From Planctomyces sp. (GTDB taxonomy: Bacteria; Planctomycetota; Planctomycetia; Planctomycetales; Planctomycetaceae), in the NCBI GenBank assembly GCA_005778115.1, contig SXKJ01000357.1, positions 1 to 44,088 of the forward strand: a DNA stretch of 44,088 nt, read 5' to 3'. Numbering within the stretch: the first letter of the stretch is position 1; each line of letters begins with the position of its first letter. A model generated the notes under the pieces. It was not told the DNA's origin and searched no databases. It saw only the letters and a list, made by a program, of their open reading frames with translations. Of this stretch, positions 1 to 42,592 are shown piece by piece. The position numbers and the translations under genes are program-made.

Positions 1-55
1 CAGCCCCCCGGTGCGTTGTTGAACTCACCGGGGGGCTGACGCCGCCCCGCTCGCC
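1..55. repeat. GGCGAGCGGGG-subfamily palindrome, left arm cut by the window edge
   Basis: CAGCCCCCCGGTG ... CACCGGGGGGCTGACGCCGCCCCGCTCGCC. Confidence 0.8.
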
Positions 56-3560: not shown

Positions 3561-3702
3561 TTTGATCTCTCCGTGTTTCTGGCCACTCGATCAATGACGG
3601 TAGCAATTGTAACCCACCCATCAATCTGGCTGAAACAACGAAAACTGCACGCGGCCCACATCAGCGAACGGGGCCGCTCTCTCACGGTCGCGGTACGGCT
3701 TG

Positions 3703-5160
3703 TTATGCTGGTTTCGGTTTCTTCGGCAACAGCGTCACTGCTACGACAATTCCGCTCAATATAAACAGCCCGCACACCAGAAAGCTGAGCCGATAGCCCA
3801 GCGCGATGGGAGTCATTCCCATCGCCGTCAGCTTGTGCTGGCTGACGAAATCGACGATCGCGCCGTACAAGTAGCCGGCGGGAGCGGCGGGGACCATCAG
3901 CATCGTGGCGAACGCCATGTTCCTCCGCAGGTCGTTCGTGCGCGATGCCGAGCAGATGTAGTTCGGCGAATAGACGCCGATCAGTTCTCCCGCGCCGAAG
4001 ATGCCGAAGGCGACCAAGTACCACGGCCCCGTGACCAGCATCGCCCACACCTGCGCAAGCAGAAAGATCGTCGATGTCGCCAGGATTCCCGTGCGAGGAT
4101 TCGTCCGGGTCAGCACCCAGCCCAGCAAGGCTCCCGCAACGACTTTGAAACTGAACCGCAGCATGTTTTGCAGCCCGGCGTATTTCTCCGGAACGTCCCC
4201 CAGCACTTCGGGCGAATACAGATTCATGTTCGACGGAATCATGTTCCCCGCGTACACGAGGATCGTGACCACCGTTGCCAGGAAGAGAACTCGCTGCTGC
4301 AACAACGAGCGGAAGTGATAGATCAAGGCGACGGCCGCACCGCTCGCCGCGATGTAGCCGGCCCATCGAAATTGTTCGTTCGATTGGACCGAGGCCGCGT
4401 GCAGCAGCGCGACCGAGACGAACATCAGCGGCACGCCGATCAACAGATCGGCCACGGCTGAGATCGGCTCACGAACCGGTTCACGTTCCACGGGCGGAAC
4501 CACTAGGAAGCGTGACACAAATGCCGCCACGGCCATCACCGGAGCACCCGCTCCGAAGAGCGTGACGAAGTTCCACGGATAAGCCACGCCGGAGAATTTC
4601 AGCCCAAACAGATCGCCCCCCAACAGCGCCGTCTGAGCGAACGATCCGAGCACCGCCAAGATCGGCCCGGCTCCGAAGGCGAGGCTCAGCGCGAGTCCTC
4701 TCCGAGATTCATCCGAACCGCGACCGATCGCCTCCCACAACAGCGCGATCGCCGCTGGCATCACCGCTCCCGAAACGCCCCCTTGCAGAATGACCATCGC
4801 CAGCTTCACCCAGTTCGGGAGCGGCAACAGCAGCGTCACGGCCAGTGTCGCCAACATGCAGGCCGACGTCGCATAGCACAGCATCAGATTTCGCTTGAGC
4901 GACGCCACTCGCGGCGACAGCCACGCGATGATGGCCGGTATCGCCGTCATCGCGAAAAACAACGTCCCCGGCAGGTTCGATGTGCGAGCGTCTGCTCCCA
5001 AACGATCGCACAACGATGCCTGCGTGATCCCAACATACAGCACCGGGGCCGCGAGGTATTGCATCCCGGTGCATGTCGCAAAGAGCACGAGGTTCCGCCG
5101 CTGCTCCGGCCACGACAACGGGCACGCATCGTTCGGCGAGTTGCTGGAAGTTTCCGACAT
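3703..5160 (-). CDS. MFS-type transporter
   Basis: Hydrophobic multi-TM protein; start set at MSETSSNSPNDACPLSW rather than the longer ORF start at 5331. Confidence 0.8.
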   Translation of the reverse strand: MSETSSNSPNDACPLSWPEQRRNLVLFATCTGMQYLAAPVLYVGITQASLCDRLGADARTSNLPGTLFFAMTAIPAIIAWLSPRVASLKRNLMLCYATSACMLATLAVTLLLPLPNWVKLAMVILQGGVSGAVMPAAIALLWEAIGRGSDESRRGLALSLAFGAGPILAVLGSFAQTALLGGDLFGLKFSGVAYPWNFVTLFGAGAPVMAVAAFVSRFLVVPPVEREPVREPISAVADLLIGVPLMFVSVALLHAASVQSNEQFRWAGYIAASGAAVALIYHFRSLLQQRVLFLATVVTILVYAGNMIPSNMNLYSPEVLGDVPEKYAGLQNMLRFSFKVVAGALLGWVLTRTNPRTGILATSTIFLLAQVWAMLVTGPWYLVAFGIFGAGELIGVYSPNYICSASRTNDLRRNMAFATMLMVPAAPAGYLYGAIVDFVSQHKLTAMGMTPIALGYRLSFLVCGLFILSGIVVAVTLLPKKPKPA

Positions 5161-6341: not shown

Positions 6342-6406
6342 GTAGGTTGGGACTCCGTCCCGACCCTGCACCAACCAATTCAGGTCGGGACGGAGTCCCA
6401 ACCTAC
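6342..6406. repeat. REP/BIME-like palindrome, GTAG-terminated
   Basis: Perfect 24-bp arms GTAGGTTGGGACTCCGTCCCGACC; each arm itself folds as GTAG + GGTTGGGAC-TCC-GTCCCGACC. Confidence 0.85.
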
Positions 6407-9667: not shown

Positions 9668-9734
9668 GTAGGATGGGCACTCTTGCCCGTCCTCTTGTTT
9701 TGAAAACATGGACGGGCAAGAGTGCCCATCCGAC
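9668..9734. repeat. REP/BIME-like palindrome, GTAG type (GTAGGATGGGCACTCTTGCCCGTCC)
   Basis: 25-bp inverted arms; same subfamily as 42511-42579. Confidence 0.85.
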
Positions 9735-14871: not shown

Positions 14872-14943
14872 GGCGAGCGGGGTAGCGTCAGCCCCCCGGT
14901 GTATTCGGTGCGGGACCGGGGGCCTGACGCCACCCCGCTCGCC
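14872..14943. repeat. Palindrome, GGCGAGCGGGG subfamily
   Basis: GGCGAGCGGGGTAGCGTCAGCCCCCCGGTG ... ACCGGGGGCCTGACGCCACCCCGCTCGCC. Confidence 0.85.
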
Positions 14944-26743: not shown

Positions 26744-26771
26744 GGTCGACTTTCTTGGTTAAACCGTATTT

Positions 26772-26849
26772 GCGAGCCGGGCGGCGTCAGCCCCCGGACG
26801 ATTCTGTTCGACTGTCAGTAGTCCGGGGGCTAACGCCCTCCGGCTCGCC
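26772..26849. repeat. Palindrome, GCGAGCCGGGCGGCGTCAG subfamily
   Basis: GCGAGCCGGGCGGCGTCAGCCCCCGGAC / GTCCGGGGGCTAACGCCCTCCGGCTCGC. Confidence 0.85.
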
Positions 26850-28301
26850 TGGGACTTCGTGTTCGTGTTGATTCTCATCATCCTGTGTTGGAGCTTCCGG
26901 CTCCGAGGACAGCCCCTCGCGATGACCGAGCAATTCGATCGCCGCTCGGTAGCGCGAGGCGATGCTGTGTTGAGGCAGCAGTCCTCCTAGCAGGATGAAT
27001 GCGGAGAGCGTCAGCACTGCGAATCGCTCGTGCGGGCCGATGCGGAGCGAGACGGTCGAGACGTGCCGCGTGCCTGTGAAGAGTTTGAGGTAGGCTTGCA
27101 CCACGGCGATGCCGTTGAGCGCCGCCGCGATCACGACGGCCACGCCGACGTGAGGATACGTCTCGACCGCCCCGTCCACGAGCAGTTCGGCACCGATGAA
27201 GCCCACCGTGCCGGGGAAGCCGACGCTGGCGAGTCCCGTCAGCAGAAAGCAGACTGCCAGCGCGGGGGCATGGTCGTACAAGCCTTGATGTTCGGTGAGC
27301 AGCAGCCGACCGCGTCGAGCTTCCAAGGCTCGTAGCGTCAAACCAAAACCACCCAGCGACAGCACGACCGAGAACCAGACACACAACGCGCCGGTCAGCC
27401 CGATGGGAGTCACAACTTCCAGCCCCACAAAAACCAGCGCCGAGTGACTGAGGAACAGAAACGCAAAAAATCGCCGAGCATCCCGGTGCACCAATGACAT
27501 CCCGGCCGCATAGACCGCCGTCGCAAGCGAGATTACTCCCATGCTCCGCAGCACCCAATCGGGCGCGATCGGCAGGACGAGTCGCGCGGTGGCGTAAGCT
27601 CCCGTCAACGGGGCGGCGAACAGCACCGCCGTCCCCAAAGTGGCTCGCTCAAACAAGTCGGTCAGCCAAACGTGAAACGGAGCGATTCCGCCTCGGACGA
27701 GAATCGCTCCGAGTAGCGGTACGACCGCCCACAAGCTGTGAACTCGGCCGTCCCCTTCGATCTCCACCTCGGTCCAACCCGCGATCATCAGGGCGATGTA
27801 GGCGAGCGTGTATAACGAATAGACTCGCGTCGGTTGACCGCGCGATCGTAGTTCCAGCCACGGCGGGACAGTCCCGGCCGCCAGTAACGCGATCACCAGC
27901 CACGGCTCCTTGCAACTGAAGATCGCCAGCATGATCGCTTCCGAGATCAGCGTCGAAGCGAACGAGAATCGCCTCACCTTGGTGCCGAGCGTCGTCAGTG
28001 CCGTCAAGAAATACAGCATCGCCACCAGCGGCGCGCTGAGATGGTCGATCACTAACACTTCGCGACCGACCAAACTCGACAACACATGCCACGCATCGTC
28101 CGCTTGGATTTCCTGAGTCTGTCCAAAGTCGAGCCATTCAAAATCGAGCCACGCTCCGATCGTCGAGGCCAGGACCAGCCCGGAGAAAATCAGGCACCAA
28201 CTCCGGCCTCGATGCGGATCGCGTGCCCGGCTGACAGCCAGCGCGCCGATCAGAGCCATCAAAATCGAGCCTTCCAGCCACGGCAAATGGAGGTCAGTCA
28301 T
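26787..28301 (-). CDS. Proton-conducting membrane transporter subunit (NuoM/NuoL-like, Proton_antipo_M)
   Basis: Multi-TM; '[44 protein letters not shown]', '[23 protein letters not shown]', '[22 protein letters not shown]'. Confidence 0.85.
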
Positions 28302-29685
28302 AGCAACTCCTCCAGCGTGCTTGGTGGCGCGTCGTCACTCTCCACAGCAGATTTTTTTGTCCCGACAGGAAGTTCGTCCAACGCTGTTCGAGGGCGTCAC
28401 AACCTCGGAAGAATTTCAGGACCGGAGCCACGATGTAGTCCGAAAGGCACGCATCCAAATATCCGCGTTGCAACGCCAGGCGATACATCCAGAGATGCGC
28501 CGTGTCCGAGAAACGCCGCTCCAACAAGCTCGTTCGAGTCGGCAAGCTTTCGCCAATCGCGTTTTCGAGGGTCCGGTAATCGTGCAGCAACGTCGGAGCA
28601 CGCAAGAACTGCAACGTCCTCAAGCAGGCGTGACCGAGAATGTGAATCAGCGCCAGATAGCGCAGCCCAAATCCGATCTCGGCCACGATGATCCCAACCT
28701 GCGTCAGTGATGCGAACGACAGCGCGCACTTGATGTCTGTCTGCACGCGAGCGGCAAACGTCCCGAAGACGGCCGTCGATACACCCACCACCACGATGAC
28801 CGCTCGGAGCGTCGGTGACGAATCGAGCAGGGCACTCACTCGCAACAGCAGGAACGCTCCGAGATGCACCGAGAGTGCGCCATAGAAAACGGCACTCGAC
28901 GGCGTCGGGCCTTCCATCGCTCGCGGCAGCCAGCCCGAAAACGGGACCATCGCCGACTTGCCCATCGACGCCAGCAGCAGCAACAGGCCCACCGCCAGAC
29001 ACTGAGGTTCGGTCAACAGCGTCGTCCCCTCGGGCCAGTGCCCGACGCGGACCAGCTTGTCGAAATCACCTTCGCCCGTCAGGTGATGCAGCACGACCGA
29101 AGCCAGCAGCAACGCAGCATCGGAGAGCCGATACACGCACCAGACTCGCAAGCCGTTCTGCACCGGAGAGAGCCGCTCGTGATAAAACGCGACAAGCAGT
29201 GCGGATGACAAGCCGACCAACTCCCAACCGGTGAACAGCGTCTCGATCGTGCCCGCCAGCGAGGTCGTGATCATGCCCAGTACGAACAGCGAATAGAACA
29301 CGAAAAACCGATTGAAGCCCCGCTCGCGGTGCATGTACCGAGCACAGAAGGCTCCGATCGTTCCGCACAGGAGAAACGTCAGAATCACAAGCGGGACGGA
29401 CAGCCGATCGAATTCAAACTTGAAGACGAAGTGATAGTGTGGGATCGACACCCAATGCCCCAGCGGGATCGGAACATGCCGCATCCCCAGCCCGAGCATC
29501 ATGGCCAGGACCGCAATCGCCGCCAGTAACCCCGTGACGATGGCTGCTTCAACGCACGTCACGATCGCCCGTTCGCTCAGCGGACGACCGCGCAGCGACG
29601 ACAAACCAAGCACGCCAAACAGCGCGGCGGGCGCACCGATCACCGTCAGTCCTAGCACTCGAAAGATCAACTCTTTGTCGAACAT
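28294..29685 (-). CDS. dabB: NuoL-like/DabB-like proton channel subunit
   Basis: '[47 protein letters not shown]', '[32 protein letters not shown]', '[42 protein letters not shown]'; start at MFDKELIF. Confidence 0.82.
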
Positions 29686-29746
29686 GTGCGCAGCTTTCAA
29701 GGGAGGTCAAACCACGTCGGGAAATGTCCGCTGCGATGCAGCTCGG

Positions 29747-30354: not shown

Positions 30355-30420
30355 GTAGCCACGCTCGCCAGAACGTGGGCCGAGTCACCGACAAGCCCAC
30401 GCTCTGGCGAGCGTGGCTAC
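30355..30420. repeat. REP/BIME-like palindrome, GTAG type
   Basis: GTAGCCACGCTCGCCAGAACGTGGGC ... GCCCACGCTCTGGCGAGCGTGGCTAC; arm folds CCACGCTC-GCCA-GAGCGTGG. Confidence 0.88.
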
Positions 30421-32300
30421 GAAACAATCTCCGCGAACTCCAGGTGCTCGCGCTGCCCGCGATACCAGTCGAGCGATGACTCGGCCTTGGGCAGCTCTGT
30501 GATGTCGGGCTGAAACGGGTGAAACTCACCCGCGCGATAAATCAAAATCTCGGACGACCTCGGATCCAGCAGAGCCAACTGGCTCCAACCGTTTTTCAAA
30601 ATCTTGGCGACGAGCGGGTCGCGGTCCATGATTTGGAAAATGCCCTCTGGTTTGGTCTCGATCACGAACAGCAGTCGCACCGGTTCGTGAATCTCGACTC
30701 CCTGCCAAGGCAGGCCCGGACGCAAATCACTGGCAGCTCCATCCATCACTCCCAGCAGTGACGTCACGTTGTGAGGCAGCTTCGTCCCGCAGCCCCAGCC
30801 GGGTGAGTCGATGTACGAAAAGAAGTATTGCAGATTGATCCCTTCGCAGACCGGCACGACCGGAGCGAGGATGCGGCCCAGAATCGACAGCCGTTCGTCG
30901 TCCTGAGCCGGATCGTAGGACTGCATGAAGCAGCGGCGGTCGAGAAACAGTCCGCGCAGCCGATGACGTCGCCCGACGAAGCACACCGTATTTGTTGCGT
31001 TTCCGAATTCTGGTCGCGTCTGAGCGAGGTCTTCCGAGCGTCCTTCGACGTGCTCGTGCGCCGCCGCAAACGACAGGTTGAGCGGAGCCGACTGAAATCG
31101 GCGACAGCGTTCGTGAGCATTCCGCTGACAAACGATGTCGAGCGAGTCGCGTGCTGCTTCAAAATCGGCGAGATGCGACTTCGGAAGCAAATCGAGGTCG
31201 TAAAACGTGAGCGTGTCGCTGCAAGTGTTGTGCAGACCGCCAACGAAAAATGTCTCGGCGGGAATGTCCAAACCGCGCTGATACAGAATGGTGCGAACGC
31301 GCGGGTCGTTGAGCATCGCCGCCAGCGCCCGCGCGTTCGGCCCACCCGCTCCACCGGAGCAGGCTCCGCAGCCGTAGGCCGATTTGTGCGGGTTGTTCAG
31401 ACAGAACGAGCCGTGCCCGAAGAAGAACAACAGCCGAGCAAAACCGGAAGTCAGCCCGATGTCTCGCAGCACTCGCTCGCCGATATTCGCCATCTCGTCG
31501 AGGCTGAAGCCGACATGATTCCCTTCGGGACCGGGCGTCGATTCGAAGCGTTCCAGTCGCAACCGTGTGACACGCGGAGCCTCCACGAATCGACCGACCG
31601 ACTTGCGAATGCGGGCCGTCATTCGCGGAAACAACACGCGAGCGACCAACGGCACCGAAGCCAACACACCTAGGCCGGCCGTCAATACCGCACCGCGCGT
31701 GATGCTGCGACTGCCGATATGGACCGAGTGCGTTGCCGTGCCGATCGCACGTCGCGTCTTCGCTCGTCGCCGGTCGTCCTCTTCCAATGAGTAGACCACT
31801 TCCTCGGTGATCCAGTGCTGCGGCCGGACGACGATCGGACACAACGTCGAGAAGTGTGCATCGGCCACTCCGCGATAATAGATCGGCACATTGAAGAAGC
31901 CCGCCGTGCTGAAAGTCTCGGCATCCGGAACCACTTCCTCGATGTGGCGGCGAAACGACTCTTCGCGCGTGTCGATGCAAAAGCAGGCTTGAAAACAAGA
32001 ACGCTGGTTGGCGAGCGGGGCGGCGTCAGCACTCCGGTTTTCAGTGGTCATCGAAAGCACCGGGGGGCTGACGCCGCCCCGCTCGCCAACTTTGCCGTAG
32101 GTGTTCCGCGTGTGAATCGCAATCGCATCGAGAGCCTGACGACGAAAACGACGTTCAAAGGCCAGATGAAACAGTCGGCGACGCTCGACCTCGGTGAAGC
32201 TCTCGATTTGCAACACGAGCGTCGACCAGTCAGCCTCGGTCAATCGGTGCAGAGCCACCGGACTGCAACCGAGAACCTGAGCGAGTTGGAAGACCAACAA
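30417..32300 (-). CDS. dabA: DUF2309/DabA C-terminal part (putative carbonic-anhydrase-like subunit), in frame with 32310-33644
   Basis: 'QACFCIDTREESFRRHIEEV' (CxD ligand motif), 'FFGHGSFCLNNPHKSAYGCGACSGGAGGPNARALAAMLNDPRVR' (H and C ligands), 'RRCFMQSYDP', 'GINLQYFFSYIDSPGWGCGTKLPHNVTSLLGVMDGAASDLRPGLPWQGVEIHEPVRLLFVIE'. Confidence 0.92.
   Translation of the reverse strand: MLVFQLAQVLGCSPVALHRLTEADWSTLVLQIESFTEVERRRLFHLAFERRFRRQALDAIAIHTRNTYGKVGERGGVSPPVLSMTTENRSADAAPLANQRSCFQACFCIDTREESFRRHIEEVVPDAETFSTAGFFNVPIYYRGVADAHFSTLCPIVVRPQHWITEEVVYSLEEDDRRRAKTRRAIGTATHSVHIGSRSITRGAVLTAGLGVLASVPLVARVLFPRMTARIRKSVGRFVEAPRVTRLRLERFESTPGPEGNHVGFSLDEMANIGERVLRDIGLTSGFARLLFFFGHGSFCLNNPHKSAYGCGACSGGAGGPNARALAAMLNDPRVRTILYQRGLDIPAETFFVGGLHNTCSDTLTFYDLDLLPKSHLADFEAARDSLDIVCQRNAHERCRRFQSAPLNLSFAAAHEHVEGRSEDLAQTRPEFGNATNTVCFVGRRHRLRGLFLDRRCFMQSYDPAQDDERLSILGRILAPVVPVCEGINLQYFFSYIDSPGWGCGTKLPHNVTSLLGVMDGAASDLRPGLPWQGVEIHEPVRLLFVIETKPEGIFQIMDRDPLVAKILKNGWSQLALLDPRSSEILIYRAGEFHPFQPDITELPKAESSLDWYRGQREHLEFAEIVS
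32007..32090. repeat. GGCGAGCGGGG-subfamily palindrome inside dabA
   Basis: Perfect 24-bp outer arms GTTGGCGAGCGGGGCGGCGTCAGC / GCTGACGCCGCCCCGCTCGCCAAC. Confidence 0.92.
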
Positions 32301-32309
32301 CGCTCGCCC

Positions 32310-33644
32310 TTAGACGGGAGGAGCATGATCGTTTCCGTTTCGCAGCGCGGCCGCCTTTCGTAACTCCGCGAGTGATCCGTGATAATCCAGCGACTCAGCC
32401 GCCACATGCGCCAGAGCGATGCGCTCCAACACGAACCGCACCGCGAGAAACTCGACCAGACTTCCGGACGGAGCCGACAAGGCCACGCGATCCGGGCGAT
32501 CCTCCATCTGCCAGATCATCCCAGCCCAACCGCGCAGCGCCAGCAGACTGGCCGTGATGTAATCGTCCCTCTCGTCGTCGCCGACACCGAGCATCTCCAG
32601 CGACTCGCAAATCGAATCGAGTGGTCCGATGCCCGCCTGCTCCAAACGCGTGAGTTCACTCGACAAGCCAAGCATCCAGCGATCCGGCGGCCCGACCGGC
32701 AGGTGGTACACCTCGCAGAACGCGCGATAGAAACCGTGTTCGCGAACAGGCAACTTCCAACCGGCGAACCCCTGATCGGTGAACGCGGCACAGAATCGGA
32801 TCAAGACTTCGTGAACCAGTTCGTCACTGTCGCGGTTCGTCGCGCGAAGCAAGACGTCACGATGCCGCGTGGGACAAATTGGCGAGCGGGGCGGCGTCCG
32901 CTCCCCGGTTTCGGTGGTCGCCTCAAGACACCGGGGGGCTGACGCCGCCCCGCTCGCCTGATTGCTCTTCTGCGTCCCTGCACGACACGCTCGCCATAGC
33001 AATCGAAGCGAAAAGGCTTCCCAGGTTTTGTCGCTCCAGTTCTCGATCGACGACTCGCCAAACCGCCGGATCAAGTCGTCGTGCAGATACTGGTCGTGAG
33101 TCGCATGTGGTCCGCTCCCACGGTGCGAATCGTCGCCGCCATCGCGCAGGTCACGCATGACCCAGCGCTTGGACTCATCGATGATCTTCCTGCGAGCCGT
33201 CGTTGGAGCATCTTCGCGGAAGTTCGTCAGCGCGTCGGTCTCGGCCACGAACCACTGTAACTCTTCGACAGGTCCGGTCTGCAACGGACAACGCAGCATC
33301 GCCAATCGGACCTCGAACGGCGTCGTGAGAGCGTCAATGCGAACATCCGCACGCTCGGCCAAGTCACGTCGCAGCACGACCGATAAGTCTTCCTCCCGAA
33401 TTCGGCCACGAGCCATCTTTTCGCGATACCGCTCCTCGGACAAATACGGCTGCACGCCAAACAGTTTGGCCCCTTTCAGCAGCCCCTCCTCGAACGGCAA
33501 GTCTTCCAGCGCCTGCAACGTGTTGAGAAACACAAACGCTGTGATCGGCCCCTGCGATGGCAGCAGTTGCGCCGCGCGGTCGATCAGACGTTGCAAGTCC
33601 GCGAGTTTTGAATCCGAAACCTGTGGGCGCGCAGCAGCATCCAC
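32310..33644 (-). CDS. dabA: DUF2309/DabA N-terminal part, terminated by in-frame TAA (32310-32312)
   Basis: 'LLPSQGPITAFVFLNTLQALEDLPFEEGLLKGAKLFGVQPYLSEERYREKMARGRI', 'VLIRFCAAFTDQGFAGWKLP'; same frame as 30417-32300. Confidence 0.88.
   Translation of the reverse strand: MDAAARPQVSDSKLADLQRLIDRAAQLLPSQGPITAFVFLNTLQALEDLPFEEGLLKGAKLFGVQPYLSEERYREKMARGRIREEDLSVVLRRDLAERADVRIDALTTPFEVRLAMLRCPLQTGPVEELQWFVAETDALTNFREDAPTTARRKIIDESKRWVMRDLRDGGDDSHRGSGPHATHDQYLHDDLIRRFGESSIENWSDKTWEAFSLRLLWRACRAGTQKSNQASGAASAPRCLEATTETGERTPPRSPICPTRHRDVLLRATNRDSDELVHEVLIRFCAAFTDQGFAGWKLPVREHGFYRAFCEVYHLPVGPPDRWMLGLSSELTRLEQAGIGPLDSICESLEMLGVGDDERDDYITASLLALRGWAGMIWQMEDRPDRVALSAPSGSLVEFLAVRFVLERIALAHVAAESLDYHGSLAELRKAAALRNGNDHAPPV
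32881..32958. repeat. GGCGAGCGGGG-subfamily palindrome inside dabA (second insertion)
   Basis: GGCGAGCGGGGCGGCGTCCGCTCCCCGGT / ACCGGGGGGCTGACGCCGCCCCGCTCGCC. Confidence 0.88.
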
Positions 33645-42509: not shown

Positions 42510-42510
42510 C

Positions 42511-42579
42511 GTAGGATGGGCACTCCTGCCCGTCCTGCCTTCCTCTCCTTCACGGGACGGGCAAGAGTGCCCATCCCAC
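42511..42579. repeat. REP/BIME-like palindrome, GTAG type (GTAGGATGGGCACTCCTGCCCGTCC)
   Basis: Same subfamily as 9668-9734; right arm GGACGGGCAAGAGTGCCCATCCCAC. Confidence 0.85.
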
Positions 42580-42592
42580 GAATCGAAGCCCC

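Follow-up and report, generated by a model that had tools for sequence, protein, structure and literature searches.

The dabA gene of a planctomycete is interrupted by an 84-bp palindrome which leaves its reading frame open, and this can very probably be explained by the insertion of a mobile REPIN-like element, with a class-3 Y1 transposase as its likely mobiliser. The window, that is the whole stretch of 44,088 nucleotides that was analysed, belongs to contig C336 of a planctomycete MAG (G000; 7.43 Mb in 515 contigs), and its features are collected in Table 1. The palindrome had been pointed out before by a sequence-only reading. That observation was confirmed, and its interpretation as an in-frame insertion of a repetitive palindrome was supported and widened by homologues without the segment, by a dispersed family and by the preference of its copies across the genome for in-frame positions.

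Table 1. Features of the window, in order of position.
Feature	Position	Strand	Remark
Partial element copy	1..55		Cut by contig end
Intergenic element copy, 72 bp	14872..14943		Just past a stop codon
Variant element copy	26771..26849		Gives last codons and stop of ORF 26787-28301
dabB-like proton-antiporter ORF 2 (PF00361)	26787..28301	-	Palindrome copy forms C-terminus
dabB-like proton-antiporter ORF 1 (PF00361/PF00662)	28294..29700	-	
dabA (PF10070)	30417..33644	-	1075 codons if stop read through; ORFs of 444 and 627 aa
Codons of Cys556-x-Asp558-x-Arg560, catalytic CxDxR	31965..31979	-	10 residues after insert 1
dabA insert 1, palindromic, in frame, 84 bp	32007..32090		Absent from 107 homologues
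Insert 1 REP arm, second, inverted	32010..32038	+	
Insert 1 REP arm, first in gene reading direction	32059..32087	-	Foot GGCGAG plus hairpin, loop GTCA
In-frame TAA splitting dabA	32310..32312	-	Stop at this place in 0/107 homologues
dabA insert 2, REPIN-like, in frame, 78 bp	32881..32958		Other reading frame: QASGAASAPRCLEATTETGERTPPRSP

Insert 1 is bounded by perfect 24-bp outer arms (GTTGGCGAGCGGGGCGGCGTCAGC), for which the chance expectation in random sequence of the window's size is about 2e-8. Extended to 32 nt each (32007-32038 and 32059-32090), the arms are 94% complementary and enclose a spacer of 20 nt, and each of them also folds on its own, leaving an unpaired foot of 6 nt. With such arms and hundreds of relatives in the genome the palindrome is real. 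Its minus-strand translation is VGERGGVSPPVLSMTTENRSADAAPLAN, the 28 residues given by the sequence-only reading, and it corresponds to residues 519-546 of the dabA ORF read through the stop. The segment is missing from the DabA of 27 relatives and from 80 DabA of named genomes, and no case of its conservation without the palindrome was met among them. Three details of the earlier description have to be corrected. The insert is followed by QRSC-FQACFCID and not directly by FQACFCID; it does not immediately precede the catalytic motif, from which it is separated by the distance given in Table 1; and the C and D of that motif are not both metal ligands. Cys556 corresponds to Cys351 of DabA2, where Cys351, His524 and Cys539 bind the zinc, and Asp353 is no ligand and forms a dyad with Arg355 (PMC13144422).

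The identity of the gene follows from the Pfam DabA match, found in both halves of the split ORF, from the intact zinc-site residues and from a sequence match to DabA2 9rd0 (E 9e-63); it is not, on the other hand, one uninterrupted gene, as a TAA occurs at 32312-32310. This stop codon had been overlooked, as had insert 2, which is likewise missing in the nearest DabA homologues, and the copy at 26771-26849 at the end of a dabB-like ORF. Structure modelling had been proposed for insert 1, and the AlphaFold model of the read-through protein (mean pLDDT 81.6, pTM 0.84) presents it as a disordered loop. Residues 521-544 and 233-254 are almost all below a pLDDT of 50, helix 485-520 preceding insert 1 and strand 552-556 following it, with insert 2 enclosed by helices 205-231 and 261-269. 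The prediction for each insert is thus a disordered loop in an otherwise confident fold, which is no proof of function. A Foldseek search of the DabA model against the PDB gave no significant match. In the solved DabA2 the first beta-carbonic-anhydrase-like domain begins at residue 341 (PMC13144422), and the insertion point of insert 1 would be the linker between this domain and the N-terminal helical part.

Since dabA has a stop codon, insert 1 possibly stands in a decaying gene, and both palindromes might persist there only for want of counter-selection. We consider such a pseudogene quite possible, although we lean against it. The doubt over whether DabA tolerates the insert is made sharper by the premature stop, which is absent in every homologue; moreover one gene has received two insertions and it is the single dabA found in the whole genome. 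Against decay, the stop aside, the gene keeps all its codons in one frame with the zinc-site residues intact, GC3 does not change across the stop and the terminal branch of the window DabA in the tree is of median length. Both inserts are in frame, and the family also occurs in frame in intact ORFs elsewhere. The TAA itself may be a true nonsense mutation or an assembly or consensus error. A TTG is found 9 nt past it, from which reinitiation is conceivable.

The reading of the insert as a mobile REPIN-like element rests on the family to which it belongs. The element consists of two inverted REP hairpins with conserved arms and a variable spacer; a single arm is a bulged hairpin with the loop GTCA and the 6-nt foot GGCGAG, and between subfamilies the stem varies with foot and loop remaining constant. 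In G000 385 + 351 arm matches were obtained at <=3 mismatches (none with the reversed pattern as control), so that the genome holds roughly 300-400 elements, a figure taken from a fragmented MAG whose contigs often end in the repeat. At <=2 mismatches the arm matches were 613 in G000, 686 in G004 and 324 in G010; the family has multiplied in part of the genus, and outside the genus there are few copies or none. The DNA sampled from these three genomes amounted to 790 kb for G000, 400 kb for G004 and 398 kb for G010, and the G000 sample contained 54 complete copies, mostly of 72 or 78 bp. No target duplication was found. The two inverted hairpins with a spacer between them, the high copy number and the dispersed, mostly extragenic location (58 of 75 classified copies are intergenic) are those of a REPIN, but the foot is GGCGAG and not of the GTAG type, and the family thus has REPIN architecture without the GTAG foot. 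Of the two copies that the sequence-only reading had put outside genes, the one at 14872-14943 is indeed intergenic; the one at 1-55 was confirmed as a copy, truncated where the contig ends. The window also contains palindromes at 1514-1591, 6342-6406, 9668-9734, 42510-42580 and 30355-30420, which are mostly GTAG-initial (REP-like) and share no sequence relationship with the GGCGAG family.

The enzyme that mobilises the element is likely to belong to a class-3 TnpA_Y1/RAYT-like (HUH) clade, judging from the hairpins that accompany its genes. In PMC6006769 class 3 TnpA_Y1 is described as REPtron-like, with the foot CnGA. Hairpin-flanked Y1 genes were also found here (L257/L268 and 8 relatives), their class being assigned by motif only, and the foot is GGCGAG in place of CnGA. 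One class-3-like Y1 gene of G000 (contig C85) has on both flanks hairpins that agree with the element in foot type and loop. Within its class-3 clade 9 of 11 genes have REPs on both sides, against none of 11 in the sister clade (both clades in L268-L278 and L281-L293) and 0.07-0.9% of random windows, a strong association; around the genes of the clade the REPs are inverted and of the GGCGAG/GTCA type, with the foot variants GGTGAG and GGTGAA. It is unlikely, although conceivable, that the element is spread instead by another enzyme (IS200-like or a GTAG-type RAYT) or by recombination or gene conversion. Y1 proteins are numerous in G000, with 16 transposase domains, and none was found that is the exact cognate for the abundant variant: the variant at the class-3 transposase of G000 (GGCGAAC..) is rare there, with only 3 exact copies, a point against this gene as the spreader of the abundant variant. 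Nevertheless the other Y1 genes of G000 are without such REPs within 450 bp, on which ground the IS200-like transposases were rejected as mobilisers, and among the class-3 genes of the relatives both-side REPs are limited to one clade. On the other side, G010 shows sister-clade class-3 genes only, and the class-3 gene of G004 is frame-broken.

The insertion in dabA is not an isolated case. The position of the copies relative to genes was evaluated with a codon log-odds classifier and controls, a 5th-order Markov coding test having been dropped as too noisy. Random 78-bp intervals were scored as in-gene and in-frame in 56-59% of the cases, and intervals with a 1-bp deletion were flagged as disrupted in 51-54%; breaks would have been detected, since about 53% of these deleted controls were flagged. 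Of the 75 elements that could be classified in the three species, 14 were inside genes, all of them in frame, and 3 were flagged as disrupting. The latter, all from G004, were rejected as broken genes because they form C-terminal tails at gene ends, so that no gene broken by the element was encountered among the 75 classified copies of the three species. The ORFs containing copies encode an RND pump, a PSCyt2/PSD1 protein, a U32 peptidase, a DEAD helicase, kinases, a GDSL lipase and others, in a list drawn from the sampled stretches and from ORF-spanning matches chosen from the relatives. Of the sampled elements with a length of exactly 78 bp, 9 of 20 were in genes, versus none of 18 of 72 bp (P = 0.0013). 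As 72-bp copies do exist within ORFs of the relatives, a preference of the 78-bp class for genes is only a lead.

Insert 1 would have arisen when a REPIN-like non-autonomous element, with a core mostly of 72 or 78 bp and a variable spacer, entered dabA. The frame would be kept because the lengths in bp of the commonest elements are divisible by 3 and because the TGA of the second arm is absent in two of the three frames; the product would be an unstructured loop, presumably harmless to the host protein. Insertions that break genes were not seen and have presumably been purged, and selection probably lies behind the in-frame rule.

Some of these insertions are shared between species. A PBP2-like gene (PBP dimerisation and transpeptidase), whose proteins are 83-89% identical among G000, G004 and G010, holds in each of these genomes an orthologous in-frame copy of the GGCGAG element at one common position; the DNA of the insert is 80-91% identical between species, compared with 88-90% for the upstream flank. 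The same gene (L074, L112, L113) contains up to three palindrome families in frame, of which, among the three genomes, the second (GEAPAEP...GSAGASPSR) is absent only from G010 and the third, which bears GTAG, only from G000. In DabA, G010 has its own copy of the element at the site of insert 2, in a different frame and in a non-sister dabA, and G002 has there a palindrome of another family. At the site of insert 1 the dabA of L186 has an in-frame palindrome (about 3663-3803; LKDEGGRMKDE...SSILPPSSF), also of another family; the DabA loops of L181 and L193 are long and without a strong palindrome. The same two DabA loops have therefore taken palindromes independently in other planctomycetes, certain loops being reused, and the proteins of this planctomycete genus keep absorbing mobile-looking palindromes. 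In the tree the window DabA is not sister to the DabA of G004, G010 and G002, despite the identity of the PBP2-like proteins, and for this reason its dabA may be a paralogue or have been acquired horizontally.

These data also bear on the possibility that repeat copies were misjoined into dabA during assembly. The MAG is fragmented and many of its contigs end in the GGCGAG repeat; but neither insert breaks the frame, the two are not identical, unique dabA sequence flanks both of them within a 44-kb contig, and independent MAGs have similar insertions, one of them orthologous, which makes an artefact very improbable. Contigs of G000 often start or end inside the repeat (e.g. C13, C17, C40, C75, C76 and positions 1-55 of the window), and the repeat is likely to cause assembly breaks in this MAG. 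That insert 1 is an ancestral DabA loop, palindromic by chance, is scarcely credible, for although the length of the loop at this site varies among DabA homologues, the sequence is in none of them and has hundreds of copies elsewhere, mostly intergenic.

The parallel with the Rickettsia palindromic elements, drawn in the sequence-only reading, is apt, but as an analogy only. These elements (PMC10969869) are also short palindrome families inserted in many copies, in frame, in unrelated genes which have homologues without the segment and which the host apparently keeps. They differ in their length of about 150 bp, whereas the core here is of 66-86 bp and made of two inverted REP hairpins; in addition, the present family is from planctomycetes, has another sequence and mostly intergenic copies, and a candidate transposase is at hand. 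Comparable, too, are REP dimers of the GTAG or CGTC type inside genes (Di Nocera et al. 2013, PMC3733652). They are most abundant in Opitutus terrae and R. conorii, occur in ORFs, contribute 20-30 residues, and are sometimes two per gene or represented by different REPs at approximately the same site. Those dimers have terminal GTAG or CGTC, and the elements described here have the GGCGAG foot, together with an orthologous in-frame copy in three species, presence or absence of other families and a controlled frame test. With the REPINs mobilised by RAYTs (PMC3116915, PMC8266576) the family shares inverted REPs, conserved arms, a variable spacer, hundreds of copies and a mostly extragenic location near gene ends; it differs in that the GTAG foot is absent and the association is with class-3 TnpA_Y1 and not with a class-2 RAYT. 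The class-3 REPtron-like genes described from Planctomycetes and Acidobacteria (PMC6006769) have a Y-x4-Q type motif, unusual flanking hairpins and high-copy hairpins, as found here, and the section of that paper on class 3 makes no tie to in-frame insertions in proteins. A literature search, for which subscription journals were mostly outside the scope, yielded no publication about REPINs inserted in frame in Planctomycetes.

In-frame palindromes have so far been a curiosity of Rickettsia and of a few REP-rich bacteria. In this planctomycete genus several stages are visible side by side: an intergenic stock, a gene with two insertions, an orthologous copy common to three species and other palindrome families which are present or absent between close relatives, with a candidate transposase class alongside. 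We offer as a speculation, which we would not expect to hold in full, that a class-3 REPtron has made a gene-tolerant element, a multiple of three in length and with two stop-free frames, which acts as a mobile donor of in-frame loops; conserved proteins would then be repeatedly remodelled at preferred loops, also by unrelated palindrome families, with the 78-bp class as the in-gene form. Both the movement of the element and the survival of proteins with 25-30 foreign residues become directly testable. For annotation the finding is also a warning, as such segments of planctomycete proteins are transposed DNA and not conserved domains.
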